A stretch of DNA of 64,000 nt. It comes from Amphiura filiformis (Eukaryota > Echinodermata > Ophiuroidea > Amphilepidida > Amphiuridae). Position numbers and translations under genes: made by a program. Below, piece after piece: positions 142 to 63,940 of the stretch; the stretch's first letter is position 1, and every line of letters starts with the position of its first letter. A model generated the notes under the pieces. The model was not told where the DNA came from. It did no database searches and worked only from the letters and a program-made list of their open reading frames with translations. The stretch lies in the NCBI RefSeq assembly GCF_039555335.1, contig NC_092628.1, forward strand, positions 73,968,713-74,032,712, in the 5' to 3' direction.

Positions 142-20328
<20,187 letters not shown>

Positions 20329-25280: not shown

Positions 25281-25853
25281 AGCGCCCTCTGTTGATCAAA
25301 ATTCACTTTAGTAAGTACTTTTTAAGAGAGTTAATTAATATTTGAGTTAATAAGTAACACTATAAAATGTAAAAAGCAGAATTTTGTTAATTTAAAAACT
25401 GAAATGAGGTATGGGGCTGGCTGGGGGTGGCCACGGGGCGTTAGCTCAAGCTCAAGGACAATATTGTTCAAGGTTGCGCCGCAGGCCTATAAAGAAACAA
25501 TGTTGCTCCCAATACAATAGCAAACAAGCTTAAACTGTAAATTAGCCACCGATAGAGGGCAGGGCCTGAAGAATGAGGGAAATTACGGGGTAAAAATGTA
25601 AAATAAGTAGAAAGTGTGAAATGGGTGACGGGCTGTCTCTAAGTATGGATATGGGTGACGAGCTGTCGATAACATAATCACAGCCCGTCACCCTTAAGGT
25701 TACCCTAACACTAACCCTAATCCTAATCCCCTAACCCTAACCCTAATCCTAACCATAATCCTAACCCTAATCCTAACCCTGACCCACTAACCCTAACCCC
25801 TAACCCTAACCCTAACCCTAACCTAACCCTAACCCTAACCCTAACCCTAACCA

Positions 25854-25893
<40 letters not shown>

Positions 25894-26172
25894 CCCTAAC
25901 CCTAACCCTAACCCTAACCCTAACCCCCTAACCCTAACCCTAACCCCTAACCCCTAACCCTAACCCCCTAACCCTAACCCTAACCCTAACCCTAACACTA
26001 ACCCCTAACCCTAACCCTAACCCTAAACCCCTAACCCTAACCCTAACCCTAACCCACTAATCCTAACCCTAATCCACTATCCCTAACCCTAACCTTAATG
26101 TAACATTGACCAACAGTAACCTTAATGTATAAAATTGGCCAACAGCACCATTAATGTAACACAGAGGGCGCT
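25281..26172. repeat. Inner inverted-repeat unit enclosing the telomeric array
   Basis: AGCGCCCTCTGT at 25281-25292 is inverted exactly at 26161-26172. Between them lie GGGTGACGGGCTGT repeats, with inverted copies at 25621-25692, and the telomeric array. AGCGCCCTC motifs occur elsewhere in the window (for example 19409), so this may be the end signature of a common MITE. Confidence 0.5.
25700..26094 (+). repeat. Interstitial telomeric repeat array (CCCTAA)n, about 395 bp
   Basis: Dozens of CCCTAA units with variants (CCCCTAA, CCACTAA, TCCTAA, CACTAA). The plus strand is C-rich, so TTAGGG is on the minus strand. Unit decay shows an old interstitial array, not a chromosome end. Unique sequence continues on both sides. 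Confidence 0.96.
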
Positions 26173-26599: not shown

Positions 26600-26641
26600 A
26601 TTAAGGTTTGTGCGACGACGTGTCGTCGCACAAACCTTAAT
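26600..26641. repeat. 42-bp near-perfect palindrome
   Basis: ATTAAGGTTTGTGCGACGAC, then GT, then the exact reverse complement of the first 20 bases. It would form a 20-bp hairpin or cruciform. Inside the 4.0-kb element. Confidence 0.95.
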
Positions 26642-29121: not shown

Positions 29122-32100
29122 ATGATGATATCGGGATTATACCCGGATCCGTATCCCTGTAATTATACAACTTTTAGCAGCAAGAAGATGCATGATATAT
29201 TAGACTGGGATATTGGAATACCATCAAGTGAAATTGTATTTTCACTATGTGTAATTGCATTTGCATTGGAAATTATGTTACTTCTATTTCATTTTATTGG
29301 AATTATTTATGCGTAAGTTATCATATAATATAAAATCCCAAACCACATAAAAAAAATCAAAATATCATTGGTTCAATTGTGTTATATAAGATATTGACAC
29401 ATCTCGCAATTATACTCGCACAAAATATATGTGTAAACCCTTTTGTAATTTTCTTTCAAATTGAAGTAAAATGAAAAAAAAAAGCTTGAAAGGAGGCTAT
29501 TGGGCTGTCACGTTCGTCAGGTTGAGGCTCAAATATTGCTGATCATAATATAATAAGAAATCGAAAACACGAGTTCTTTGAGAGTGCAAGTGCATGTATT
29601 CTTGATGGCAAGTTGATGCTGGTATAAATAAACGCCCTTTTTACTTTTTGCACAAGTAGGGGCCTACTCGTTAAAATAAGCTAAAATACGATTTTGTTTT
29701 TCATATCACAAAAGAACGAGTTTTAAAACAACATTTTACATGTTTAAATTGACAATCAGGACTGGTTTAATAATTTGTTGTTTTTAGTACATTTTAGCAG
29801 AGTAGGCCCCCGGTATAAACGCCTGAAATTATAGAGAAAGATGTTTAGAATGTGGGATGGACGTTGGAATATCCCTATCTTATCTGATATATACACATTA
29901 TACACATCCAATAAGAATATTATGTAACAAATATTTGTCATGAGTCAACTGGTATGAATATCGTGACCTTTGCGTGTTGCATCATATCAGTCCATTTGAC
30001 TATCATGCCATTTATTTATTTCAAGGTTTATTCTCACATGATGTTGTATATTTATATCAAAGATACTCTTGCAAGGTCCGGATTGTAAATTGATTAAAGT
30101 GTTTCAATCTTTTCGGTTGATGATCATGATGATAGGTCAATACAGATTGTAAAATAGCTTAAAATGGAATTTTAGATTAACTCGAACGTTTTTTGTAGAC
30201 TGATTTCATCTTCCAACATGTCCAATCAACGTAGGCATACTGCCAAATGGCATGCATTACATTGGTTGAAATGAGATTTCAATCTTTTTAGAGTCAATAT
30301 TTTCAATCTTTACATTTTTTTTTCAATTAGAAAGAATTTGGCCCTTACTTCTGTCGGTAAAAGATTGAAAAACAATGAATACCAATCATTTCGATTGAAT
30401 AATCAATTGGAAAAGATTCCTATAAACTTCAATCACGAAAATTTAGATTTAATTAGAATTAATCTAATTAAATAGATTGAAAATTCCAATAATTCGATGG
30501 AATATTCGATCGACTTGCACGGCAAGAGATTGCAAGTTTAGATTGAATATTCAAGGGAGTGGTACACGTTCACGTCAATGGGGGAGAGTTTAGGACACCA
30601 ATAAAAGCCCGGGAAGAAAGTCATATTTTTCTCCAGTAAAATTTAACCTCTGTCCTATGTTTCGTTTTATGCATGGGCATTTGTTTTATACATATTTTGC
30701 TTCTCATATGAAAACCGCTGGAGCAAACTCAGAATTTGGAAACAATTTTTTAACATTCATGGTAGGCATATCACCACGCCCCTTTAAAGGCCCACTGGCT
30801 TTTATTGGTGTCCTAAACTTCACAAAATATGCAAGAAACTAAGATCAACAGTAGCACATAGTTTCTTTTTATTTAGTTTTTATATATACCTCAAATTGAG
30901 ATTAGTGAATATCTTGTTTTACAGAAATGACAAACACGCGAAGATATAAAAGACATGCAGTGTGTACGTCAGTGATTAGAATCTTTGTCCAAAAATGTTG
31001 GAAGTCCTATAAATATGTGACCTGACCTCTATGCTATAAATGTAAATATATACATGATATTTTTGATTCATGAATGTGTAATACCGGATCTCGTATTATG
31101 CACATTTTGCCCTCTGAATGATTTAGAATAATACTATACATGTATACTGAATTATACATTTCATTTCGTAACTAAGTTTCCGTTCTGGCCAGTTCAAATA
31201 AACACTATTTACTCAATTGGCCACAACATATTTATAGCATCAAATGCGTATATTTTTGGATATCTTTATGGGGCGATGTTATAATAAGATTATTGTTTGG
31301 ACAACTTATTCCTTTGTTTACTTATTACCATCCGTAACAATATTAATTGTGATAAAATTAAGAACCTGGGTATCGAAGTCACCGTATTTGAGAGCACACG
31401 ATCTCCATGGGGATTTTATTTTCATAATTTTACCTAGTAATATCAATATTATTATGCCATTATTGCCATGTTGATCTCCAAGTCTGACATGTAGGCTTGG
31501 GCAAATTACGTTTTAGTAAAGTTTCACGTTTCTCAATAATAGGCGATTATAACCGGTATATTGGTATATATGGTTAGTAAATAGAAACTTATAATTGGGC
31601 CTCTATTGCTATTCTCAACATTTCCTACCGAAATATAGAATTAATAGGATGAAATATGTAATAGATGGTGCAAGTACAAGGTTCTTTTCCAAGGTTCTTT
31701 CTGGGAAAAATAAAAATCAACACAAATATTTCAGGTCATTGATTATGGCTAGAGTATAGTATAGGCTATACTTTTGATCAATACCGTTTGATGAAAAATC
31801 ATGCATGCTGGGATCGAAAACTTAGGTCGGTAACCAAAAGTTTCATTTTAAAACACTGCCGACTAATTTTCAATAGACGATATAACAATTGATTGTTTTT
31901 TTTGTTTTTTTTTTGTTTTTTTCGTTTTCCGCAGCAAGTATGTCTTATATCAAAAGCCAAGTGTGAATATGTCAAGAGAAGAGCTACCTGGTGTTTCTAT
32001 TTTAAAACCTCTTGTTGGTGTTGATCCACATTTACAAGACAATTTGGAAACATATTTTAATATTAATTACCCTAAGGTAAGATATAATACATAATATGAT

Positions 32101-35100
32101 AACCCTTCCCCAACCCCACCCCTAAAAAAAAACCGAGAAAAATATAAATAAAACGGCAGCAACCGCGTATAACAAACCCAAAAATGTCAAAACTTACGTT
32201 GCATGTCTTTTGTGATATATTATATGATTATGATAACTCGCCAAGTATGGAAGAAGGTAACGGAAGCAACATGCAGGAAAGTACTATGATACAAAAATGA
32301 AATGTTCATTCGGAGAATTTCCTAGCAATATTTTAGGAATATAACTATATAGAAGTAGGCCTAAACATAATCAATTTATAAAATGTAATCTCATATCCAT
32401 TTTTTCCTTGCACCATATACAGTACGAATTATTACTATGTGTTCAATTAGAAGGAGACCCATGCCTTCAAGTAGTAGAATTACTCATGACAAAATACCCA
32501 GATATAGACGCACAGTTATTCATAGGTAAGTACGAGTAGGCATACTGGTTTACTAGTCCTAGGCCTACTAGTATTATAACCCATTCATAATGGATACGAT
32601 ATGACAGCTCACTGCGTGGCGTGGGTCCCACGCCATTTTCCATATTAGTTGGGCAACCCTTTACCTGGTCCATCCGTGCCAGAATTTCTACCCACCACAT
32701 ACCCCGGGCCACAGACACTCCCATGCACCCGCAATAAGCCATCTTACAAGCCGGGCTTACAACATTAGTTATCAACGTGCTCCTACCAGTAATAGGGGAC
32801 ACACGCAAAACAAAATAACATGCAGCAAAGATAGACAAACAGGCACATACACCCCCCCCCCACACACACACAAATACCCCACCCCGCAATCCTCTAACAC
32901 TCCCGCAAACTCACATATATAGGAATAATATAGTGTTACTCTCCCAATCAAGAACACCACCTTCCCACGCGAATAGGAGGATGTTATAAACCATCAAACA
33001 TTGTTATCAACGTGCGCTTACAGGAGACACATGCACACAAAACAAATAATTATTATTATAACAACCAGAAAGATAGACAGAGGATAGACACATACACACA
33101 AACACACCCCACGCCCACATTCATGACACACCACCCTCCCACCCACACCCCCACACGCTCAGCCATCGTAATTATGAATTAAATGTTGGTCAGTAAGTAC
33201 AACCTGTCGTCTCAGGTACAACATTGTTATCAACGTATAATACGCTTACCAGTAACAGGGGACACACACAGAACAAATCTTATAGGCAGTCAATGTACGC
33301 CCACACACCCCTACACCACTCCACCCCTCGACGCACACTGGGAACAAATTTAAAAAAATGTATTTGTTCAACATTTGCCCTTTGAGTTATCTTCTTGAGA
33401 CATTTTTAGAAAATCTGCCTTCTTTTTATTGACCAAATTAATTATTGATTTTAAAGGCAAAATATACTTTTTTATTCAAAAAGTTTATGTTTGCCTAAAA
33501 ACGTAAGACCGATATTTCCAAAATAAAATATTAACACGTGCGTTTATAACGGTGGCAGAAGACTCGCGTAAAATGAGTGCTAATATTAAGGAAAAACTTC
33601 AATATCTTCCCGAAAATGTGGTGTATTGTTTGTGTGTGCACACGTACACAATGTTCTGCTATATAGATACATACAACGTGCGCTTTTTACCTGTGCCGGG
33701 GGATCCACGCAAAACGTACTTTTGAGCCTGTGTGTGACGTATAACCTGAAATACATTTTGACGAATCAGGACATCAGTCGACCTACCTATTCATACCTTG
33801 ATTCGTTAAACAGATATTTTCCCCTATCTTCGCATAAAAACATGGCATTAACTATTATTATATATATTTTATCATTATTAAAATGTTCTCTTTCTTGATT
33901 TTCAGGAGGAAATAAAATAGGTGAAAATCCCAAAATGAACAACATAATGCCTGGTTACAAGGCTAGCAAATATGAAATCGTACTAATTAGCGATAGTGGC
34001 ATACAAGGTAAGGGATTTAAAACGATACTTTAGTATGTATGATATGAGCAGTACCTATAGGGCATATTTTGAAATTATTGTCAGTCCCATGGAATTTCTC
34101 CAAATTGCAAGCCAAAAATCGCTTTACTCCTCTCGACCTGACATGTCGAAATCGGCATGCCAAAAATGTATGCCTCTGATCTTTGTAGAGGCCACATTAT
34201 TAACCCATATAACAAAAGATGTTGTCTAAAAAGAAATGCAATTTCGCATTAGATCGCGTTCATTCTATTTTGTAAAATAAATTTGTTTGGCAGAGATCCG
34301 ACTTGCCGAAAAGTGCCCATATTGGATTTTAATAATACCCGCCCTATATAGGGCACACAATAACGGTTGATATGGTTAATACTAGGCATCAGCAAAACTC
34401 AGATCAGTCTGAAGAGTTTTCTTACAGAATGCTTTTTTTCCTTTTCTTCTACAGCATATTCAGATATTTTAATAGACATGGTAGCACGGATGGGTCCGAA
34501 AGTAGGGCTGGTACAAGGTCTTCCTTTTTGTACAGATAGAAAGGGATTCCCAGCCGTATTAGAGAAGGTAAGTAGTGTTTTCGGTGTCGTCGTCATCATC
34601 CATCATGTCCATCGCTGCCAACATCTCTTCTTCCACCAGTAACATCATCACTATCACTGTACTAAATCCATCATTCGACACACCTTCGTAATCATGTGAA
34701 TATTTTACCTATCTTACTTTTCAGGTTTATTTTGGTGGTGCTCTCGCACGGGTGTATATCAGTCTGAGCGTCCTAGGAATCAACTGTGTATCTGGAATGT
34801 CCAATTTAATCAGAAAATGCGTCTTAGAAGAGGCTGGTGGTCTGGTTGAATTTGCCAAGTACATATCTGAAGATTTTTACATGGGTGAAGCTTGTGTAAA
34901 AAGGTGCGTATGCTACGTCATTAATGGATATACAAAATCATTGACGTATACGGATGATGTATTAATTTATGCTTTTGGATGTATTTGCAGATATTTCCCT
35001 AAATTTTATAATTACTAAAAAAAGAAATCCTTATTATCATGTAGAATTGATATGAAGAAAAAAGAGGAAAATTATTGAATATGCCTAAGAAAGCGTATAC

Positions 35101-43192: not shown

Positions 43193-46100
43193 ATGGCCGA
43201 TGAACCTGCTTGTTTGAGTTGGTCTTGTGAACAAGTCGCTAACTGGGTCGCTCAGCTAGGTTTTCCACAATATAAGGTAAACTAATATGTCGTGGTCATT
43301 CATTTTTGTATTTAGATGGATCACATGTATATTCAAAATTCACCATTTTCTCGATATGAAAGACATAAATTGGCAAGCCTGTCATGCATGGCTGTTGAAT
43401 TCGTCAGTCATGTCAGTCAGGCCACACAATCTGTGTTTATATTTACCTACACTGCAGTTTTTGGCAGAGAAGAATGGCATTGATTACACTTTGAGATCGT
43501 GCACAACGTGGGTCGGTAATTGACATGATTGAAGGGGAAAACAACAAAGCGCCCCATTCATAATATATGTCATTCATTAAAAAGGGCGCTCACATCAATC
43601 CGAGCAAGTGACTGACATTCTTCTCTTATACCAAGTGTAGGCCTACATTTGACACTACGGGCGCACAGAGTTTTTATGAGACATACTTACTTGTCCCGCA
43701 ATAACGGGAATTCCTTTAACAACCAGACTTTGCTGTCCTGCAATATCGGGTAATCCGGTCATATTAAACAAGACAATATGTTTTTATCATGCTTTTCGGG
43801 CTAAAGGATTGAGTCTCGCATTTTGTGAATAGCGCAATCGTGTTCAGCGTGAAAAGAACCCTAAGTTGATGTTGGTGGGGGGTTCAGTGTTCGATTTACC
43901 ACCTGCATACCTGCACCAGTGCATGTAACATTCCTTCTGTGCATGCAGCTTTTCACTACCTGCCTGCAAGCGTGCATGTACGATTTTAGCGCTAGCGATA
44001 TGACAAGGCAATATACAAAAGTAAACAAGCAGTCAGTCCGATTTGGAAAAACCCAATCTATTTTTAGCGCAATATCCTGACTTCATTAGAAGGGCTGGCG
44101 CAAATCGCGCAATTGACAATTCCCGATACCCCTATCACGTGAGAACTGTCACTTTTTTTCATTGACTTCCCTAGTCTCCTACACAGCCACTTTGCGTCGG
44201 TCTGATACTTATCGATCCTAACGAACATTCGAGATAGCCACATACAGTCTGGTCCGAGACTATGACTTCCCTTAGAGGGGCTAGCGTAATGTGACGTTAT
44301 CCACCAATTGACCTTTTCGGTAAATCCCATAACCCTTTGCGAGTACACCTGAGAACTCGTCATTTGACGTCACGCCGACTTGCAATGCGCAGTAACGATG
44401 TTCGATAAACGATGTGCGCGCATCGGCGCGAGCGGCGTGACGCAGAATGACAAGTTCTTAGGTGTACTCGCAAAGGCTTATGGGATTTACCGAAAAGGTG
44501 AATTCCCGATACCCTCGCACATGTAGAAGCTGTCATTTTCATTTCATTGAAAAAAAAGAACCGGAATTTAAACCGTGGGAAATATTTGTTTACGTACTGA
44601 AAATAATCACAATAATGTCCAGCAAAAAAGGAAATAGCTCAAAAAACACTTGCATCATTCTGGAAATCGTGCACCTCGTCGGCGACTAGTTCTAGAACAG
44701 ATGAAGCCACAGCATCCAGTGTTTTGGCTAAGAAATCGGCGAGTGATCGGCATAAAAATGACAATGACAGTGGAGCCGGGAATATTATTACAAGCTTAAC
44801 TGACAATGACCGTGATTCAATGTGATTTTATGTTTGCTTTAATTTTGGTGCATGCACACTTTTTGCTGTGCATGTAGAAATTTTGGGCTACATGCACCAG
44901 TGCAGGTAGGAAAAAATTTGTAAATCGGACACTGGGGGGGTTACGGTAAAATGGGATGTTACTGATATTTTGCTATTTCTTGTTTTCCATTGAAATATCC
45001 ATAGACAATTTGAAAAATGCAATACGTTTTTAGCAACGTAATATAAACAATTTTTTATTTGACTTATTTTAAACAAAATATATTTTATTTGTTCCAACAA
45101 AGAATTTCCAACAACTGAGGAGTCAAATTTTACTAGTACAGTTAATTTCCCGACTCCAAACAAAATTTATAAAAGTAATTTTTAACCACATGGCACATTC
45201 CACTGATACATTTTCAAAATATCGTGCTCACATTTGTGGAATTATTTATCGATAAGCGGTTCAAAAAAGTAGCATAATTTGCTGAAAACTGAATCAATTC
45301 CCACCGGGTTTTCTTTCAGTGGGTGCCATGATGCTTATTAATATTCTTACGTAAAAAGGTCATATGTTGCGTATTTGCATAATTCGGAAACTTCGCTGCT
45401 AAATTTCATTCATAAATCTAAAGTCAGAAGCTTTTTCCGACCGATAATGGTGGTGATGTCACCTAAAAATGAGCTAGCTGCGCTTGCGCCGAGTGAAAAT
45501 AACATCGGCCATTACACACTGCCGAATGCATACTTCAATTATGTCCTCTCATGGTAGTTTTCATGTTATAACAGGACTTCCTTCAATGACCGGACTTAAG
45601 GGTACGGTGGGTAATAGTAATTACGAATATTTAATAATGTCCGTTTATTGCAAGGCATCCTATAATGTAAGAAAGTCCGGTAAAAGTCTGTGCGCCAGCA
45701 CTGTTTGATCGAGAAGTCTATCCTTAATCCAGGCTACTGATAACCGACGATGGATATGAGGACAGAGCTTGGAGCCAGCTCAAATCGTGGCAGAATCAGT
45801 GAAGCATAACACCATGTAAAGCAGGAAATTTGTCAGTCAACAATACCGATCACAATGGGTGCATGCAGGGTCTTAGCTAGCCACCCGTCTGGCCGTCATT
45901 TTAGACGGGGAGTTTGCTCCTGGGACGGGCAAAATTAATGCCTTTGACAGATGCTATATTATAAATTGTATGTTTTGAGAAGCTAATTGACTTTCTTAGT
46001 AGACCCAATTTGTAGAACAAGGCCATATCAACACATATTTGAACTCTTTGAACCCCCAATAGGCTATAGACGTCTGGTAAATGTTTTAAAGGTCATATTA

Positions 46101-49100
46101 GGACAGGCAATTTTATTCAAATGACGGGCAACTCTCAATTTCTAGCTAAGACCCTGGGTGCATGGGTTATCATAGCACCCAAAATTTGCTCAAATGACAC
46201 GTCGCTGAATTTGAACATGGTTAATCTCTTAAAAATTAGCAAACTTTACTCTGAAAATACACATTTAAAGTCATCACATTAAATTTCGGTACCATTGAAC
46301 TTCACAAAAAATTGTTTTTATGTGTTTGAAAATTGGCGACGACTAAGTGACTGAAGTAGTTATTGTTCCATACTGTATCTCTATCAGGGTTCCCGTTAAG
46401 GGTTTTAAAATGTGCGTCATGTGTGACGCAAGTTTGCTGACAAGATTGAAAAAACTTGCGTCCAGGCAGATTTTTGTGCGTCCATCTGAAATTCACGATC
46501 AATCATACTGAGAGCTATACTGGGAAACGCAACGGCAACCCCTCGTTGCTAACACACATACCCCGGGTCTACCTCATCACATGTTGATTGTTAAAATAAA
46601 ATTTTCGCCGTGATATTCCATCTCCAGTCGCAATGATAATTTTTCTCATTTCTGCATCAGTTTTTGTCCGAAACATGGTCAGAAACAGCTGCAAAAACAT
46701 GCGCAAAGTCTGTCAATCTTTAGCAAATTTTCGTACTTTTACTTCCGGGTTTTACTTTAACTTCGATCCACGTGTTGTTGATGATGCAATAAAAGCTAAA
46801 ACACGCGCTGCCACAAATAATACAAAAAAAGGTTATCATTTGGATTTTGTCTTTAAAATTGCTTTTATTCATCGTAACAATAATACTAATAAAGGAAACG
46901 TAGATTATTTATGAAAAATAAACTTAAAATATTAAAACTGAATATTGTCAGGTTATGATAAATAACTAAATAAACATTAACTGCACGTCGTCAGTTCAGC
47001 ATGCTTTGTAAACAAACAATTGCATCAATTGGGACTTTCCCCATCAAACAGCGATCGCGACGGAAAGCATGCAAAAAGTGCACGATTTCCTGACGTTGCA
47101 TTTACAAATATTGCAGAATTTACTTCAATTCTTAGCAGGTTGGTCAAAATTTTGGGGCTTTTATTATCGTAAAAATAAAACAATTTCTTATTTTTATCAT
47201 CAATTAATGATTAAATTTCGAAGTTTTGTCTGCGTCCACATGGACGCAAAATACTTGATTAGCCATGTGAACTTGCGTCCAAATTTGTAAAATACGCGTC
47301 TGGACGCAATGACGCACACTAACGGGAAGCCTGGGCTGATATTCATAAAACCACGCTAGGCCTAGTTGACAGCTAAAATTGACTTTAGCAAGCTGCTAAG
47401 CCTAGCTGATTGCTAATTCTTATTCATAAAACCCAGTTAGAGTTAGCAACATTCTAAAATTTTGCCAAAACTTAGAGTTGATCTGGGGCAGCGCTAAGTC
47501 ACTAGTTGACAACTAGTCTTAATGATTTTGAACTAAGTTTGACATGATTTATTGTTTTAATTTCATATTAACTGTTGTCAATTATGAAAAATAATGTTCT
47601 CAGAATATTCTGTTTCTGAGGTCTTCAGTGTGTTTTACACATAAGAAACTGTCTTAAAAACACACAACAAATTTAGGGTGAATGAATAAACATTGAACTA
47701 AGCCAGTATTGTTTAACCAAATTTGCACAAGAAAATGATTATGATATAGCAAGTAATCTTTAGTTAAGCAGATATGTTCAATCGAAGCAATTCTGTTCAA
47801 TTGTTTGATACGTAAAATATATATTTTGGAGACATGTTACCAATGTTCTCTTTGGTAAAGATGCATGACTTATTTTCAATAACAAATTATATGTCAATTT
47901 GATAAAGATAAATCATGCTTGGCTTTTGTCAGGACAACAAGCAAGATATATCATATGCTATTAAATTATCTAATATTATTTACACAGTGTTGCTCATGAA
48001 GCTAAATGAGCAGCGTTAAGTGGATGCATGTTGTTTTCTATTTGATGAAGCAATATAGTATGTATAGTATGTTTTTACAACAAACCAAGGACTTAACATG
48101 TATATGAACTTTACTTGTTCAGAGTATCTTTTTAATTTAATTTGCCGTAACAACCTTGTAGGCCTATATAGCTTACAAAATACACATGTAATTTTATTAA
48201 CGAAATCTCAATGAAGACCATCAGCAATGAGTCATTACATTTTGATCATTTTGACTGTGGTTCAGAGCTCAAGTATAATAGACATGTATTATATAAGCCT
48301 ATTGTATTAGATGTTACACAACTGTTGAAGGCCATAGCACCCAAAACACCCAAATAAGTTATCAGCTAAATATTTCTAGTTGATAGCTAGTTAGCAAAGT
48401 GTTTAGCAAGGTTTTATGAATAAGAAATTAGTTGATTGTTACGTAGCTATCAACTAGTGGATTTAGCATCTTGCTAAGCACTAGTTGGTTGCTAATTTAG
48501 CAAGGCTTTATGAATATCGGCCCAGATCTCTATCCACACAGTTATATTGAGTCGTCGTGGACCTAACATTACGCAGCGTCTTTTGGAGGTTGCCTTAATA
48601 TTTTGAACAGTCTAATCTGTACACAATGCTCCCTACTGGAACCAGGCATATAGACTTAGAGAAGTCTACCTTTGAAATTGCTCACCGATAGCTTCATTTA
48701 ACATTATCAAAACAAAACTAGTAACTACATACCGGTATTTTAAGTTTAGACGAAATTAATTTGCGTGATGGAAAATGGATCTACAATTATAAGAATAGGC
48801 ATTTAGTTGATTGAAACATAAAAAATCATGGAATTATTCAATATTCAATATAATGTCAATGGGGTTTATTAGAAAGGATCCACGCAATGTATAGGGCCCG
48901 GTCCCTCAACTCAACACAAAAGTTGGCATATCAACCTATCAGAGTGACTCCGTAAGGAGTGTTGGACAGTATCAACATCAAAATCAAGACCATGAGAGAT
49001 ACCAAATCTTTCAAAGACCTCCTTTGCAATGATTTTTAATCAAATTTACCCCGTTTTCATGCAAAATCAAGGACAAAATTTGTCCAAAAAGAACTCCTTT

Positions 49101-51042: not shown

Positions 51043-51332
51043 CAGGGTCTTAGCTAGCCACCCGTCTGGTCGTCATTTTAGACGGCCAGTTTGCTCCTGG
51101 GACGGGCAAAATTAATGCCTTTGACAGATGCTATATTGTAAATTGTATGTGTTGAGAAGCTAATTGACCTTTTTAGTAGACACAATTTGTAGAACAAGGC
51201 CATATCAGCACATTTGAACTCTTTGAACCCCCCAATGGGCTATAGATGTCTGGTAAATGTTTTAAAGGTCAAATTAGGACAGGCAATTTTATTCAAATGA
51301 CGGGCAACCCTCAATTTCTAGCTAAGACCCTG
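51043..51332. mobile_element. hAT-type MITE, CAGGGTCTTAGCTAG ends, copy 2
   Basis: 290 bp, near-identical to 45866-46156. CTGCACAG is duplicated exactly at 51035-51042 and 51333-51340. It lies downstream of the SAMD15-like gene. A third, decayed relative in reverse orientation is seen around 57430-57570 (GACGGGTG, GGAGCAAACT, GGCATTAATC). Confidence 0.93.
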
Positions 51333-51602
51333 CTGCACAGAGTGGATTTGGTTGTACATCAAGTGAACTTGGGGACTCAGATGGCTGAATATATCTGAAT
51401 GACATTCACATACCACGTCACCCTCAAAACTGCAGGTTGTAAATGTATGTATATGTTTGTAAACACCAACCAACAAGGACACACACAGAAAATCACTGTA
51501 CAACAGTGGACGTGTGGTTCTAGGTGTAAAACACCAAAAGAAAGCTTCAAATCAATATAGCTATTAGCTAATGAGTCTCACTTGGATAGTATACAAAAAT
51601 GT

Positions 51603-51737
51603 ACAAATACAACATGGTATAGAGGGAAGTAGTGGAAAATACTGGTCCCGAGGTGTTGGATGATTGGGTCCCAATCATCCAACACCAAGGGACCAGTATT
51701 TTCCACTACTTCCCGAAAATAACCATGTAGTATTTGT
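51603..51737. repeat. 135-bp near-perfect palindrome (foldback)
   Basis: Arms 51603-51668 and 51670-51737 fold around a single T at 51669. The inner 17 bp (GGTGTTGGATGATTGGG) and a 25-bp block starting GGAAGTAGTGGAAAATACTG pair perfectly. The outer ends pair as ACAAATACAACATGGT against its complement with one mismatch. It lies 2 bp from the recombinase element's left inverted repeat. Confidence 0.85.
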
Positions 51738-52116
51738 TTTACTATACCTCATAAATATTTACTATGATAATTTGCTATAAAATGATAATTTGACCTTACC
51801 TTATCATCATGTCCATGGCAGCCACGTAGCCTCCGAAGAAAACAAGTTTAATGTTGCACTTTGCTGTGCTTGGACATGTTGTACAATATTATTCACAACA
51901 GTTTCCAAAAGTTTGCTAATATAAGCATAAGTTCATTCTAAATATTACCAAAAAGTCAAATGCTCAACTTCAAATCCAACAGCAATAAATCCAACAGTGA
52001 TAAAAACCGAAGTCCAACAGTAAACATCCGTTGCAAAAGTAGTAACACGTAAACAGTTTTAAAGTCATTGAAATGCAAGAAAAAAATATACAGTCTCCTT
52101 TTGATGCGTTTTTCTT

Positions 52117-52392
52117 TTACGCATGGTAGATATTTACTTGACAGTTAAAGCTGGCAGTTGATGCCTTTTGATTCACTTGACGTGTGACATCGATATTCAA
52201 GCCAAGAGCTGGGGCCATTGGCGAGTTGGTCAAGTCGCTTAGAATTTGGTCTTCTTGGGAATCTGACAAAAGCTGCAACTCGAAAGTTGGCTCTGCATCT
52301 GTAGTAGAGATGCTGGGAACAGACGTTGTGGGTCTAGTTGAGGTGCTAGGCGCGGAACTAGCATTAGCAAGACTAGGGTTAGGCCCGGGCCG
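52117..52392 (-). pseudogene. 3' continuation of the recombinase frame beyond two in-frame TAG codons
   Basis: Directly downstream and in the same frame as the recombinase, after TAG at 52402-52404 and 52393-52395, the frame is open for about 91 codons to TAA 52117-52119. Composition looks coding: Ser/Thr/Pro-rich (SSAPSTSTRPTTS), then acidic (LLSDSQEDQILSDLTNSP), ending in SFNCQVNIYHA. Recombinases of this family often have a low-complexity C-terminal tail. A GTAAGC donor sits just before the TAGs and an AG just after the second one, but removing that 38-nt stretch would break the frame. The simplest reading is two nonsense changes within a GCCTAG-rich stretch; read-through is possible but not shown. 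Confidence 0.6.
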
Positions 52393-52401
52393 CTAGGCAT
52401 G

Positions 52402-53526
52402 CTAGGCACTGAAGGCGAAGATAAGCTTACCGCACTGTTGTCTGTTGGACCCCCCGTAAGCCAGTGATGACAAGCTTTCACTCATCTTTCGCTTTTGGCT
52501 ATTACCGGTGCGACTGTAGCTTCGAATGCTGGCTTCTGACTTGTGCCCTGTAATACTCATGATGTGCCTGGCTTCAAAGCCAGCTTGATCCAATGTGGTC
52601 ACATTTGTTGCACGAAGGCAATGGTTCGTGTAAATTTGCGATTTTTTAGCTTCAATTGATATATTCCTCATCTTATTATACAGTGTGTTTTTGCCCATCG
52701 GCGCGTTGTCATGACTGTCCTTCAATTGACATGCCTCTTTCGGTCGTTGCCAAAAGGCGTTGCAACCAGGGTTAAGATGGCTTATATATCTTTCAAATGC
52801 TTGCACGGGACAATTCTCTGGAAACTGTGGCGTTTCATACATGAGACCTGCGTGACTTTTTTCATCATCAACATGGTGATTTTTTGTCAGGCGATCTCTG
52901 ATGCGTGTAACATAACGACGGTTGTTAGCATCCACTTTGACTTGGAACTCGTCTTTCTCCATCTCTCGCAGATTCTCACGGCCACGCTGACTCATAAAAA
53001 GCATGATGTCAATGAAGACTTTATTCATGAGACCTCTTGGTGTGTTCTGATTCAAGGCATCACTTGGTCTGATTTTCTGCATATCTTGCGGCTCAATTGG
53101 TTGCTTGTGATTGACGGCAGCTTTCCCTTCGTCTTTCAGCTTAACAACCATGGCAGCAAACATCTCATTTGCATCTTTAAATGCACTGTCATTCACAATG
53201 TCAAATTTCCTGAGCTTGGAAAAATGCTTCTGAAGCCCATACCTGATGGTTTGCATAGACTTCTTTGCATAAAAGTCTCCTTTCTGAGTACGAATCTCTG
53301 CGTAAAACTGTCGTAAAAAGATGCACAAGTCCTCTTCTTTGAGCTGCTCAATTTCTGTAATATCATTCCCTTTGCTTGCACAGTACGATGAAAAAGTTAC
53401 CACGGCTTTCTCGACGATTTTCTTCGTTTGTTTAGCATCTTTTCCATCCAAAATGTTTTGCAAATCCACTTCTGACAGCACTGCAAACCTGTCTGCAGCC
53501 GGCACCGCCATTGTCACTGTTAACAC
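52402..53526 (-). CDS. Crypton-type tyrosine recombinase (KIAA1958/QRICH1-like, DUF3504 family)
   Basis: An uninterrupted 374-codon frame encodes a tyrosine recombinase of the kind carried by Crypton DNA transposons and by the domesticated KIAA1958/ZMYM/QRICH1 genes. Residues about 35-135 are a helical core-binding region. The catalytic set is present: Arg in FMSQRGREN (about 181-183), H-x-x-R in NHCLRATNVTTL (302, 305), His in ITGHKS (328) and the nucleophile Tyr in SIRSYSR (337). These enzymes cut and rejoin DNA through a Tyr-DNA intermediate. Start choice: MLTVTM or the second Met (MAVPAADRF). The frame stops at TAG 52402-52404, but the same frame stays open after a second TAG down to 52117. 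It lies inside perfect 22-bp inverted repeats (51740-53832), unusual for Cryptons as described. No second element gene is seen. It could be an element gene or a recently dead copy. Confidence 0.9.
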   Translation of the reverse strand: MLTVTMAVPAADRFAVLSEVDLQNILDGKDAKQTKKIVEKAVVTFSSYCASKGNDITEIEQLKEEDLCIFLRQFYAEIRTQKGDFYAKKSMQTIRYGLQKHFSKLRKFDIVNDSAFKDANEMFAAMVVKLKDEGKAAVNHKQPIEPQDMQKIRPSDALNQNTPRGLMNKVFIDIMLFMSQRGRENLREMEKDEFQVKVDANNRRYVTRIRDRLTKNHHVDDEKSHAGLMYETPQFPENCPVQAFERYISHLNPGCNAFWQRPKEACQLKDSHDNAPMGKNTLYNKMRNISIEAKKSQIYTNHCLRATNVTTLDQAGFEARHIMSITGHKSEASIRSYSRTGNSQKRKMSESLSSLAYGGSNRQQCGKLIFAFSA

Positions 53527-53832
53527 CGAAAAATTTTGTATTTTTTATTTCTGTTGTTGTCGTCTGATCTCTCCGCTTTAACTCAACTACCTATTTCAAA
53601 GTTCCGAATGTAGCGTAATGGCAATTTTGAACTTTGCATGTGGGCCTTAGTGGGGGATGATATGAGGTGTGGTAGTAGATTTTGTAGTACATTTTGGATA
53701 GCACATTTTCCCCCGCGTACGCATAATCGCACAGGCGCGGGGAAGTAGCGAAAATACCGTACTCGGACGCTGGCGTTATTAACCAATATAAAGATGTCTG
53801 GATTACCTAATAAATATTTATGAGGTATAGTA

Positions 53833-54195
53833 ATACACATTTACCATATCCACAGTAAGGTGAAAAACTCTGTGTGTGTCCATGGTTGCATAGTAACTCT
53901 TATTATGCAAGTAGTATTTTTCAAGTAATCATTTGCTGTTTTGTGATCTTGTGCATGCAAAAAATAAATTATTGCAGCCCTATGAACTTGACCAATGTTA
54001 ACTAGCTGTACTACAAGATGACCCTTGTGATGAAACCAAATGAGCAAAATTACATTGATATCCTTCAACAGTATTTATGAGAAACACAATCAGCATTTTA
54101 CCCCCTCCCTAAAGAAACTACAGTCCAACCTGTTTTAATGGCTATGATGGGACCAAGCATCAGGCGGAAAATGAAATATCTGGATATAAAGTGAA
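53833..54195. other. No gene or repeat recognised
   Basis: A/T-rich flank right of the recombinase element. Only short frames. Confidence 0.4.
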
Positions 54196-57731: not shown

Positions 57732-57775
57732 AACTCTTATGAAAGACATACTTTGTGTAAGAAAATAGAATCTCA
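57732..57775 (+). repeat. 44-bp direct repeat, left copy
   Basis: AACTCTTATGAAAGACATAC... recurs at 59012-59055 with one difference. The two copies bracket the duplicated segment. Confidence 0.9.
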
Positions 57776-59012
57776 CCCAACTGCAACATGACATTCTATA
57801 TCAATACATGGTGTTATGAGTCTTATTTTTTCTGCCTTATATTAGTTCCAGTAACTGTAACTCGTCATACCTAGAGTTACAGTGCACTCTATTGCTATCT
57901 TTTCCACAAATAAGAAACATCACAATATGTGGGCTCATTTTGGGCTCTAAGGATGCAGCTGAGGAACTCTCTCAAGGACAGTTTGGGCATGCACTGATGA
58001 TTTTAATCCCATTGTACCAGGGTTTGGGCGTGCCTGGATGATTTTAATCCCACTGTACTAGTCTATACTCACAAAGTTGAGGCAGAGAAGATGAGAAAAG
58101 AGGAGATCGCTCGAACATATAATCCGATTACCCACAGTTAACCTCTATTCACTTTTCTTTGTTTGGGGTACTTAAAACACCACTTGAAACTTCCTTTGTG
58201 GTAATCTGTTCATCCGCCACACGCCGTCTGATTTGGTAGTTCTCTCCAGTGGAGAAAATATTCCACACACGGAAGTACATCGTTAAAGTCCCAATTTTGC
58301 AGTCAAATCATGCTTTTTTGTTTAAAAAAAAAAAATACTAACTAGGGTGACCATGATTTTTAAACGAGTGAAGAAGCATTATATATATTGCAACTCCCAT
58401 TAAAAAAATCAAAAAAATTGTTAAGTTATGGAAAGTCAAGCATAATTAATTTTCCAGTCAAATTAATATAAGGTCAAAGGAAAAGAAATTTAAATGATAA
58501 CTATTTGAATATTTGCGGCAGTTTACGGAAACATAAAACCAGTGTAATCAGTAATTCAAACTCGTGTCAGTTTCTCCATATACTCCCGTTTTGTGTCCAA
58601 ACGTGTCCAAAATGCTATTTGGATCCAAAATGCGGGTCTTTTTCACAGGGATCTCGGGTCAAACTTAGCAGCCAGTCATGCCAAACAATACAGAAATTAT
58701 ATTTCGCGGTCAACTGACGTAACAAATTGATATCCGGCATGCGCCGTTTAGAGCTAGACAGTCGTGACTGCATAAAGCCACTTATCGTATTAGTTGATCA
58801 ATCGGATTAGATCATTGTTTCCATCAATAGGCGGATGCACACATTATTTATTTGATGTGGGCAGCGAGCGACCTCCTCTTTTATCATCTTCTCTGGTTGA
58901 GGTAATTGATCTACATTGATCTCATCTTTTGGGTGGGTTCAAAATTCCCTGAGTTGGAAAAACCTGCAATCTTCATGGGAGTAATTTACTTAGTGCAAAA
59001 GTGGTCAAAATA
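57774..59012 (+). repeat. Segmental duplication, left copy (interrupted)
   Basis: 57774-58082 plus 58896-59012 match 62184-62602 almost base for base. The left copy is split by an 813-bp insertion. No coding frame is shared. Confidence 0.92.
58083..58895. mobile_element. 813-bp element with 31-bp inverted repeats and a 7-bp target duplication
   Basis: Ends CAGAGAAGATGAGAAAAGAG... with 29 of 31 bp inverted at the right. GTTGAGG is duplicated at 58076-58082 and 58896-58902. The empty site (AAAGTTGAGGTAATTG) is in the other segment copy at about 62483-62498. Non-coding interior. A 7-bp duplication fits P-like or Dada-like elements; no transposase is there to decide. Confidence 0.85.
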
Positions 59013-59910: not shown

Positions 59911-61165
59911 CTAGAGCGGTTCTCGACTTGCGCGGTTCTCGACGCAAAGCGTCGGCCACAATGCCTCCACCTTGAGGCGTATCATTTTAACCGGTGCAAT
60001 TTCACTAGGAGCTGGCCATCTGTAGATGACAGTGTAAGTTTTAGCCACTAAGTTTCATGCCCATACAACAGTTTTTAGTAATTTGACCTCAGGTGACCCC
60101 TGGGTGACCCCAAAATGACCGCCCAAAAATGTAACCCTAAATGTTGACTGTACCCACCAAATTCCATGCCAATCGACAGTTTTAGTAACTTGACCTCAGA
60201 TGACCCCGGATTACCCCAAAATGACCTTCCAACAATTTAACTCTAAATGTTGACTGTACCCACCAAGTTTCATGCCCATACGACAGTTTTAAGTTATTTG
60301 ACCTCAGATGACCCCGGATGACCCCAAAATGACCTTCCAAGAATTTAACTCTAAATGTTGACTGTACCCACCAAGATTCATGCCCATACGACAGTTTTAA
60401 GTTATTTGACCTCAGATGACCCCTAGGTGACCCCGGATGACCCCAAAATGACCGTCCAAGTATTTGACTCTAAATGTTGACTGTACCCACTTAGTTTCAT
60501 GCCCATACGACAGTTTTAAGTTATTTGACCTCAGATGACCCCTGGGTGACCCCGGATGACCCCAAAATGACCGCCCAAGAATTTGATTCTAAATGTTGAC
60601 TGTACCCACCAAGTTTCATGCCCATATGACAGTTTTAAGTTATTTGACCTCAGATGACCCCTGTGTGACCCCAGATGACCCCAAAATGCCATTCAAAAAA
60701 AAATTTGGTTCTAAATGTTTACAGTACCCACCAAGGTTCATGCCCATACGACGGTTTTTGCTAATTTGACCTCAGATGACCCCTAGATGACCTTGGGTGA
60801 CCTTGACCCACTAACCATACCTACTGGAATTTGGAGACCGCCAACGACCATCCCTCCACCAAATTGCATCACTGTACACCAAGGTTCATGCCCATATGAC
60901 GGTTTTTGCTAATTTGACCTCAGATGACCCCTAGATGACCTTGGGTGACCTTGACCCACTAACCAAACCTACTGGAATTTGAAGACTGCCAACGACCATC
61001 CCCCCACCAAATTGCATCACTGTACATCTTACCAGTTTCGAGAAATTGCACCCGCAAGCTCGGACGGACAGATGGACGGACGGATGGACGGATGGACGGA
61101 AGGACGGATGGACGGACGGACGGACAACCAGGAAACATAATACCTCCGGTGGAGGCATAAAAATC
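59911..61165 (-). mobile_element. Tandem-array element 3 with TGACCT half-sites
   Basis: Read on the minus strand: palindrome CCTCCACCGGAGG (about 61144), a (GTCC)n microsatellite (61060-61125), then about eight units of 105-125 bp (61020-60040), each with TGACCT/AGGTCA half-sites. On the plus strand the units read AAATGTTGACTGTACCCACC, AGTTTCATGCCCATACGACA and GACCTCAGATGACCCC. Then come the hairpin GACGCTTTGCGTC (59941-59953) and CTAG (59911-59914) before T. Same architecture as elements 1 and 2 but different unit sequence. It may overlap the 3' UTR of the APMAP-like gene. Confidence 0.58.
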
Positions 61166-61176
61166 ACATGTTTTCA

Positions 61177-63940
61177 TCACATCTTATTAGTTCTCATGTC
61201 AACTTTCACTAAATATGGTGCACTAAATGATCCCAGATAGAGGGCATCTCCCGTATCTAACACTTCACTGACGGAACCAACGACTTCTCCTGTTGGGTCA
61301 TGAAGACTTCTCCTTATAAGACCTTCTTGGTCCAGCTCAATTATCATACCATATGTGGGTAAGAGTGACAGAAGTTTTGCTGGATTCACAAACTGAAACA
61401 AGAAAAGAGAAAATATAAGTGTTCATAGTGTTCATTAATGAAAAGAGGGATGACTGATTGAAAGCCACATACCGTAAAGATTCGCCTAATGGTGCACTTG
61501 GGCTCCTTTGTCTTGGGGTAAATATCATAGGCAAATAGAGAACTCCCTACTCTGAAATCCTACAAGAATTAAGGTTCTGTGCCCTTATTGGTTTTTTTTT
61601 TTTTTTTGTGGAATTTTTACTAAAGGGCACTTGCCTAAAATTCCACTTACGTTAAGTAAGCCCATAGCTCCATTAGGCGATCTTTGCGGTTTGTGAATAG
61701 AAAATTTCATCTATATGACATTACTTGTTACCTTCTAGATGATATGTTACTTTGCTGCTCTATCACAAGGATACACTGAAATATTTTCTTCACCACTGTA
61801 TGATGTGTTAATAATTTCAAAATTGGTTTCCAAGATAAAATGCTCCTACTTCCTCCTAACAATTAGTTAGGATTGCTGGATTGGTGTAATGTCTTCATTT
61901 AAAATGTGTTAGTTTTTCCCAACCTAACAGCAAAGCTAGAGTTACTCATAATGCAATTCAGACAGGTGTAATATACAGCACTGTGATTGTCAAGGCAGGA
62001 TACAGGTCAACATGGCCAAGTTGTTATTAACACTATCTAAAGTTTGTTCGGCTTATATAAGGCAAGAAATTATTTGTCTTTTGTTATTGCGCACATTAAT
62101 AAAGTTCCAACTAATGATCGCGTAAATTCACATAAGCGTGCGCCAATCACCCATTACGCAACGCAAAACTAGCGTTAGCATTGCACCCAACTGCAACATG
62201 ACATTCTATATCAATACATGGTGTTATGAGTCTTATTTTTTCTGCCTTATATTAGTTCCAGTAACTGTAACTCGTCATACCTAGAGTTACAGTGCACTCT
62301 ATTGCTATCTTTTCCACAAATAAGAAACATCACAATATGTGGGCTCATTTTGGGCTCTAAGGATGCAGCTGAGGAACTCTCTCAAGGACAGTTTGGGCAT
62401 GCACTGATGATTTTAATCCCATTGTACCAGGGTTTGGGCGTGCCTGGATGATTTTAATCCCACTGTACTAGTCTATACTCACAAAGTTGAGGTAATTGAT
62501 CTACATTGATCTCATCTTTTGGGTGGGTTCAAAATTCCCTGAGTTGGAAAAACCTGCAATCTTCATGGGAGTAATTTACTTAGTGCAAAAGTGGTCAAAA
62601 TATTGCTCTGCAAAATGTCTTGATTTTCATGATTTGGATTTATAATATTGAGCAGCATTCTACTTGTGATGTTTCTACACTGTGTAGAGAGGGTCTACAG
62701 CATCTCTGAGGTAAAACTGACAAATACAAGGTATATTTCTTGATGCTTGAAGTTTGGATTTCTTAAACGTACAGTGCATCCCTATGTACCGCTGCAAGAC
62801 TTCAGGTCCGTAGATGTCATTATGTTTATGATAAAGACTGAAGTCTTGCTGGCAGGACTAGCCTTATATAAGCCAAACAAACTTTAGTTAGAATTATTAT
62901 TACAGTAAGAAAGAACATAATGACACTGCTGCTTAATTTAAAGGTGTATATCAATACAACACAATAACAGAACTCCTTTCAGGTCATACAATAACCAGTG
63001 GAGTCAATTTCATAGCTTACAAAAATACCTATATAAAAACTTATTACTAGTAAACACATACCTTTGTAATTAGATTCCTTAACCAGGGTTTGTCTGCTAA
63101 GAAATCAAAGAATGGATATGACCCCATTCGTCCTCCAACATAGGCTAATCCTACCCAATATCCTCCTGTACTGCTAGGTGTTATGTTATCTGGAATACCG
63201 GGCAAATTATCTGCAAATATTTCTAAGTTACCAGACTTGGGTCCATCAATGTAATATCTGACAAGTAAAGCGATATCAAAGCTATTATTTTTGACATTGA
63301 ATCCTATACTGGAAATGATTGGTTGGTAACTCACTTTGTTAAAGTTTGTTCGGCTGATATAAGGTGAAAATTATTTGGCTTTTATTACTGCGTGCCTCAA
63401 TAAAGTCCCAACTCACGCTCACATAAATTCACATATGTGTGCCCCAGTCGTTCATTATGCGAAGCACAACTAGCGTAAGCACTGCCCCCAACTGCATGCA
63501 AGCCATTCTACACACACAGTGTTATGAGTCTTATTTTTTCCACCTTATATGAGCCGAACAAACTGTACATTCAGTTATTTCTTAAATTAGTGAGAAGTTG
63601 TACAAAGTCCACACAGTTATAAAGATTTCAATCAAAAACTTTGATGAACCTGTGCCTGGGCTTCTTGGTCAGTCTGGATACTAGCATTAACATTTCTCAC
63701 AGCTTTCCTAATCACTATATGTCAGAATAAATTTGCTCTAAAGTTACCTTTGATTGTCTACCTTTTAAAGTTTTATTTCCTTTTGAGGTGACTATTAATA
63801 CTTACTTCAGAATTCTGAACCTAGATGACTCTGCGATCAATAAGAAATCTTCTTGTGGTGACATTGTTATACCATTTGGAAAGAATAGCTTTGGTAATGC
63901 AACATTGCTTCGGGAACTCTTAGGATTGTACCAAATTAAC
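61177..63940 (-). CDS. APMAP: APMAP-like (strictosidine-synthase-like beta-propeller) protein, last three exons
   Basis: Exons on the minus strand: 63806-63940, 63062-63257 and 61177-61392 (TGA at the end). They have GT-AG borders and compatible phases; the 5' exons lie beyond the right edge. The protein reads LIWYNPKSSRSNVALPKLFF, FPNGITMSPQEDFLLIAES, then FADNLPGIPDNI, TPSSTGGYWVGLA and KPWLRNLITK, ending with IELDQEGLIRRSLHDPTG, VSEVLDTGDALYLGSF and APYLVKVD. These match the C-terminal half of vertebrate APMAP (for example PGFPDNIRPSSSGGYWVG and RRSLHDPDG in human). APMAP is a type II membrane glycoprotein with a six-bladed propeller and reported arylesterase activity; the anchor would be encoded upstream. 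About 181 residues are visible, close to the matching part of human APMAP. The introns (549 and 1,669 bp) contain copies of one MITE family. Confidence 0.94.
61469..61692. mobile_element. MITE, ACCGTAAAGATTCGCC ends, copy 2
   Basis: Diverged inverted-orientation relative of 41095-41309. The ends (CGCCTAATGG.GC) and internal blocks (GGGGTAAAT, AGGGCAC, AAATTCCAC) match. In the last intron of the APMAP-like gene. Confidence 0.75.
62033..62884. mobile_element. MITE family in APMAP introns, copy A (852 bp)
   Basis: CTAAAGTTTGTTCGGCTTAT at 62033 is inverted at 62859-62884 with one mismatch in 26. It contains the right copy of the segmental duplication (62184-62602). Confidence 0.7.
62184..62602 (+). 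repeat. Segmental duplication, right copy (uninterrupted)
   Basis: Contiguous 419-bp version of the sequence at 57774-59012. It preserves the empty site of the 813-bp element. Confidence 0.92.
63338..63570. mobile_element. MITE family in APMAP introns, copy B (about 230 bp)
   Basis: AAGTTTGTTCGGCTGATATA at 63340 is inverted near 63544-63568 (CCTTATATGAGCCGAACAAACT). Its left half matches 62038-62190 (AAACTAGCGT...CCCAACTGCA), so it is a shorter member of copy A's family. Confidence 0.75.

Follow-up and report, generated by a model that had tools for sequence, protein, structure and literature searches.

The survey of Kojima and Jurka 2011 describes animal Cryptons as lacking terminal repeats; in its account short direct repeats probably serve as the substrates of Crypton recombination, and a recombinase site consists of two inverted arms of 11-13 bp around 6-8 bp (PMC3212892). 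CryptonA elements resemble the element described here in being recombinase-only and in encoding a DUF3504-related recombinase with a complete catalytic set, but the survey's account of this group reports no terminal repeats, whereas the present element is flanked by 11-nt direct repeats and perfect 23-nt inverted repeats (PMC3212892). Short direct repeats at both ends, as found here, are described for CryptonF and CryptonS (fungi, oomycetes and a diatom); these measure 5-6 bp in the groups of the survey, and 4 or 6 bp according to its background part, compared to 11 nt in the present case, and CryptonF also carries a GCR1_C domain, which a Pfam scan of the frames of at least 60 codons did not find in our element (PMC3212892). 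Elements of the DIRS/Ngaro type have a reverse transcriptase beside the recombinase, while the element here (2.06 kb) gave no match to a reverse transcriptase or to a DDE transposase in the Pfam scan of its frames of at least 60 codons.

Three further systems share single features with this locus. MarCry-1_FO contains a Crypton recombinase inside TA-compatible inverted repeats, as here, although its definition drew on four copies, each flanked by TA duplications, and it encodes a mariner-type DDE transposase that has no counterpart among the scanned frames of our element (PMC3212892). In Cre-loxP and loxPsym, inverted arms surround a central spacer, and loxP (34 bp) is close in length to the 36-bp palindrome predicted below, a likeness of plan only (PMC5964202). 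Finally, some crustacean endogenous nimaviruses with tyrosine recombinases enter 28S rDNA and leave an 11-mer direct repeat, but these are large viral elements with rDNA or telomere targets, and their recombinases are not close to those of Cryptons (PMC10871703).

The 64-kb window (the whole stretch of DNA analysed) holds what looks like a partly decayed animal-type Crypton of about 2.06 kb with a tyrosine recombinase as its sole gene. The minus-strand frame from 53544 to 52405 stays open over 380 codons from stop to stop, and the four other frames of the window that reach 130 codons are all shorter; its first ATG lies at 53511 and its in-frame stop at 52404. Read from a GTG, the recombinase ORF (52405..53526, minus strand) encodes 374 residues. 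Two Pfam families were matched above their cut-offs, DUF3504 (32.1 against 29.7 bits) and Phage_integrase (28.9 against 27.1 bits), while the N-terminal part is QRICH1-like with a score below the cut-off (27.8 bits; cut-off 30.8). These matches support, at the level of sequence, the assignment of the gene to the Crypton-type tyrosine recombinases. Five motifs were located on the minus strand within the ORF: QRGREN (52989-52972), RLTKNHH (52893-52873), NHCLR (52626-52612), GHKS (52548-52537) and SIRSYSR (52530-52510). Assigned by eye, we take these to contain the catalytic Arg, the Lys, the HxxR, the His and the Tyr, respectively. The first-pass annotation had proposed a single gene with a full R..HxxR..H..Y set between the repeats, and both the motifs and the Pfam matches bear this out.

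Downstream in the same frame, a stretch of 91 codons (52392..52120, minus strand), rich in Ser, Thr and Pro and ending in NCQVNIYHA, is separated from the recombinase ORF by two stop codons in frame, which start at 52404 and 52395; it gave no match in the Pfam scan. Because of these stops this copy of the element is probably not fully intact, although the frame of its catalytic part is open. Besides the recombinase, only the frame antisense to it reaches 130 codons inside the element. Seven further frames of at least 60 codons were scanned there, the tail and the antisense frame included, and gave no Pfam match above cut-off (one was sub-threshold). That no second enzyme was seen inside the element counts for a recombinase-only Crypton. 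A single-sequence structure prediction of the recombinase was unsuccessful (mean pLDDT 36.6), and a search of the PDB by sequence returned only XerA (E 0.13) and VP39 (E 0.88).

Relatives of the element were searched for at several levels. With tblastn no second copy of the recombinase was found in the window (best other match E 0.36), and neither an empty site nor a second copy of the element was seen in these 64 kb, which weighs against the interpretation proposed below. Searches for recombinase relatives yielded one unconfirmed pattern match in viral contigs and 32 pattern matches in prokaryote genomes, none of them confirmed; the 80-residue catalytic stretch gave 18 pattern matches in viral contigs, again with none confirmed. 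The repeat DNA (21 nt) had no match in viral contigs. A 19-nt version matched genome contigs five times, and since all five matches lie in bacterial records and none continues as a palindrome, they were taken as chance. Rfam gave no match at gathering score on the window. Among the titles and abstracts listed from the open-licence literature, none deals with a palindromic target or terminal inverted repeats (TIRs) for animal Cryptons, which is not proof of absence.

Exact inverted repeats lie at both ends of the segment that carries the gene. The left one (51739..51761, plus strand) is the reverse complement of the right one (53811..53833, minus strand) over 23 nt, rather than the 22 previously noted, with a mismatch next on either side; allowing mismatches, the inverted match covers 33 nt at 91%. 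In order-2 Markov versions of the window (n=20), inverted pairs no more than 3 kb apart averaged 0.05 per sequence for 16-mers and were absent at 18, 20 and 22 nt. As the simulated windows lack even inverted 18-mers, the 23-nt repeat pair is not a product of chance. At the same distance limit, 112 inverted pairs of 22-mers were counted in the real window. They fall on 11 diagonals, one of them that of the 23-nt repeat, and inverted repeats are thus fairly common here. The 21-nt repeat core, with up to three mismatches allowed, was found nowhere else in the 64-kb window.

The inner part of each inverted repeat holds AAATATTT, which is its own reverse complement. Because this core is self-palindromic, both ends are also direct repeats, as site-specific recombination would leave them. 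An exact 11-nt direct repeat, ATAAATATTTA, is present on the plus strand at the left end (51751..51761) and at the right end (53810..53820), and it extends to TACCT(C/A)ATAAATATTTA, 17 nt with one mismatch. Given that the animal Cryptons of the Kojima and Jurka survey lack terminal repeats, an 11-nt direct repeat is itself unusual, a point against the interpretation given below. We place the predicted crossover region in this 11-mer, with its centre between 51756 and 51757 on the left and between 53815 and 53816 on the right, so that the predicted element spans 51757..53815 (minus strand), a length of 2,059 bp from one crossover centre to the other.

The two junctions differ in their symmetry. 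At the right junction a 24-bp near-palindrome (53804..53827) pairs at 11/12 positions and resembles the plan of a tyrosine recombinase core site, with two inverted putative recombinase-binding arms around the short spacer AAATATTT. Only three centres in the window reach 11 palindromic pairs, this junction among them. Five of its pairs are the core common to both ends and the next seven match at 6/7, a level reached by 182 of the 127,512 7-mers of the window, both strands counted (0.14%). The left junction pairs at 7/12 positions and at 2/7 beyond the shared core; the site predicted for a circular form of the element would pair at 8/12 and 3/7, respectively. The left junction is a poor recombinase site, and this counts against reading the repeats as halves of a split target. 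The probability of about 0.003 obtained for the two junctions is modest and was computed post hoc, as was that of the outward match reported below (0.007).

These features are best accommodated, in our view, if site-specific recombination brought an animal Crypton into a palindromic target and the apparent TIRs are the halves of that target; we regard this as somewhat probable. Under this reading the recombinase would form a circle whose joined ends read ...TTACCTAATAAATATTTACTATG..., the circle site would recombine with the chromosomal palindrome TTACTATACCTCATAAATATTTATGAGGTATAGTAA, and strand exchange would take place within the shared ATAAATATTTA. The left inverted repeat can then be read as comprising the crossover region and, outside it, the left half of the palindromic target. 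Since the inserted element would part the two halves of the palindrome, these would come to look like perfect terminal inverted repeats, an option left out of the earlier reading of this locus. Joined at a crossover within the 11-mer, the flanks would indeed read TTACTATACCTCATAAATATTTATGAGGTATAGTAA, a perfect palindrome of 36 bp, and the inner ends joined at the same crossover would read GGATTACCTAATAAATATTTACTATGATAA. An inverted repeat rewritten as a joined palindrome adds by itself no evidence; what counts for a split target is the direct repeat beside the inverted one (11 nt if exact, 17 nt if a single mismatch is allowed), the near-palindrome at the right junction, and the outward similarity and the lack of a target duplication described below. 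As a perfect 36-bp palindrome is rare by chance, the target must itself have been a special sequence, and this weighs against the reading.

The natural loxP spacer is asymmetric, and symmetric lox sites allow both orientations and inversion. As the inner overlap is symmetric here, insertion in either orientation and inversion in place, besides excision, would be expected for this element as well; for a genome with loxPsym sites, deletion and inversion are mentioned (PMC5964202).

The sequence outside the repeats bears on the same question. Outward of the 23-nt repeat, past one mismatch, inverted similarity is back at 5/6 nt, and among 200,000 random pairs 0.7% match as well as this; such a resumption fits a target palindrome and not a TIR with a sharp outer edge. 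Farther out (beyond 51732) the similarity fades to 4/12, and its loss past this position has to be counted against a split target. No target duplication of 2-12 nt was found outside the inverted repeats, whether their edge is set at 22 or at 23 nt, yet the hAT-like MITE copies of this window have clean 8-nt ones, which again argues for a split target.

The first-pass annotation had offered two options, a Crypton lineage that gained inverted ends or a recombinase captured by a MITE-like element. The recombinase part holds on the Pfam matches; the ownership of the repeats does not fare as well, as the palindromic core and the direct repeat favour a split target. A Crypton lineage with acquired inverted ends, on which its recombinase would act, would account for a perfect identity of 23 nt at both ends around a single recombinase gene, and the weak left inner arm agrees with it. 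We nevertheless consider such a lineage unlikely, given the absence of a target duplication and the inverted match that resumes outward, and it offers no reason for the right inner arm to be an inverted repeat of the outer one. Two full recombinase sites in inverted arrangement favour inversion of the segment between them over excision, and the same outcome would be favoured for this element if each of its ends were such a site.

A second option, which we hold to be quite improbable, is that a non-autonomous cut-and-paste element with a 20-nt TIR, CTATACCTCATAAATATTTA, and TA flanks contains the Crypton or has captured it, in the manner of MarCry-1_FO. The repeats can be read as TA plus 20 nt and, at the other end, 20 nt plus TA, and a composite of mariner and Crypton that has TIRs of 16 bp and TA duplications has been recorded from Fusarium (PMC3212892). 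However, the TA pair lies inside the perfect 23-nt repeat and is forced by it, so it offers no independent evidence. Moreover, no transposase was seen in the scanned frames, the 64 kb hold no further copy of the repeat, and no separate inner ends of a Crypton were noticed. That the gene is a host gene or a decayed domesticated recombinase, with the inverted repeats as remnants of unrelated palindromic repeats, is very improbable: similarity to DUF3504 and QRICH1 is common to domesticated Crypton genes and the region has other palindromes, but the survey describes domesticated animal DUF3504 genes as having lost the catalytic tyrosine and the second arginine (PMC3212892), whereas the residue set is complete here, the tail is cut off by two in-frame stops, and the direct 11-mer at both ends would be unaccounted for.

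One base before the left inverted repeat ends a near-perfect hairpin, a MITE-like palindrome of about 135 bp (51603..51737). The predicted fold within 51595-51745 has an energy of -61 kcal/mol, compared to a mean of -14.2 for 200 shuffles, and at the tip of the hairpin arms of 17 enclose a loop of 1. The hairpin was considered as part of the element and rejected: a 19-nt resemblance to the interior is weak (6/200 shuffles were as good), and in six further comparisons of the hairpin, the flanks and the interior with one another, 13 to 134 of 200 shuffles were as good. It is on account of this weak resemblance that the hairpin is treated here as flank. Its arm (26 nt) had no match in viral contigs.

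Another palindrome in the window, at 26600-26641, has arms of 20 nt and a 2-nt loop. Two MITE copies (45866-46156 and 51043-51332) are 94.5% identical, with ends CAGGGTCTTAGCTAG; they are hAT-like, and their target duplications read GGTGCATG and CTGCACAG. Long direct repeats are present at 57766-58082 and 62176-62492 (317 bp, 99% identity), and a further exact repeat of 117 bp at 58896-59012 and 62486-62602. Minisatellite arrays are found at 6951-7968 (units of 128 bp) and 60045-61026 (units of 119 and 148 bp), and about 400 bp of interstitial ACCCTA (telomere-type) repeats at 25702-26098. Among the ten frames scanned with Pfam outside the element, two at 34364-35015 match Glyco_transf_21 and probably represent exons of a gene for ceramide glucosyltransferase; by eye, the frames at 31867 and 36291 resemble further exons, but they had no match in the Pfam scan. 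Taken with the DUF3504/QRICH1-type recombinase, this gene would point to an animal as the source of the DNA.

Since long, nearly loopless palindromes occur elsewhere in the window, targets of the kind proposed for the split-palindrome insertion would be available. A broader proposal can be put forward tentatively, and we regard it as doubtful in its full extent: the recombinase of an animal Crypton may target palindromes that are long and AT-rich, such as perhaps the tips of palindromic MITEs, through a fully symmetric crossover, with insertion in either orientation and flipping in place.

The choice of target by animal Cryptons is poorly described in the literature covered here. As the animal Cryptons of the main survey lack terminal repeats (PMC3212892), the junctions of the present copy are of use: with junctions that resemble a recombinase site, it becomes directly testable which target was used, where the crossover fell and how symmetric the reaction is. 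The locus also carries a warning, as not every pair of inverted ends around a recombinase gene has to consist of terminal inverted repeats. If true, the targeting of AT-rich palindromes with a symmetric crossover would define the anatomy of an insertion site for an animal Crypton.
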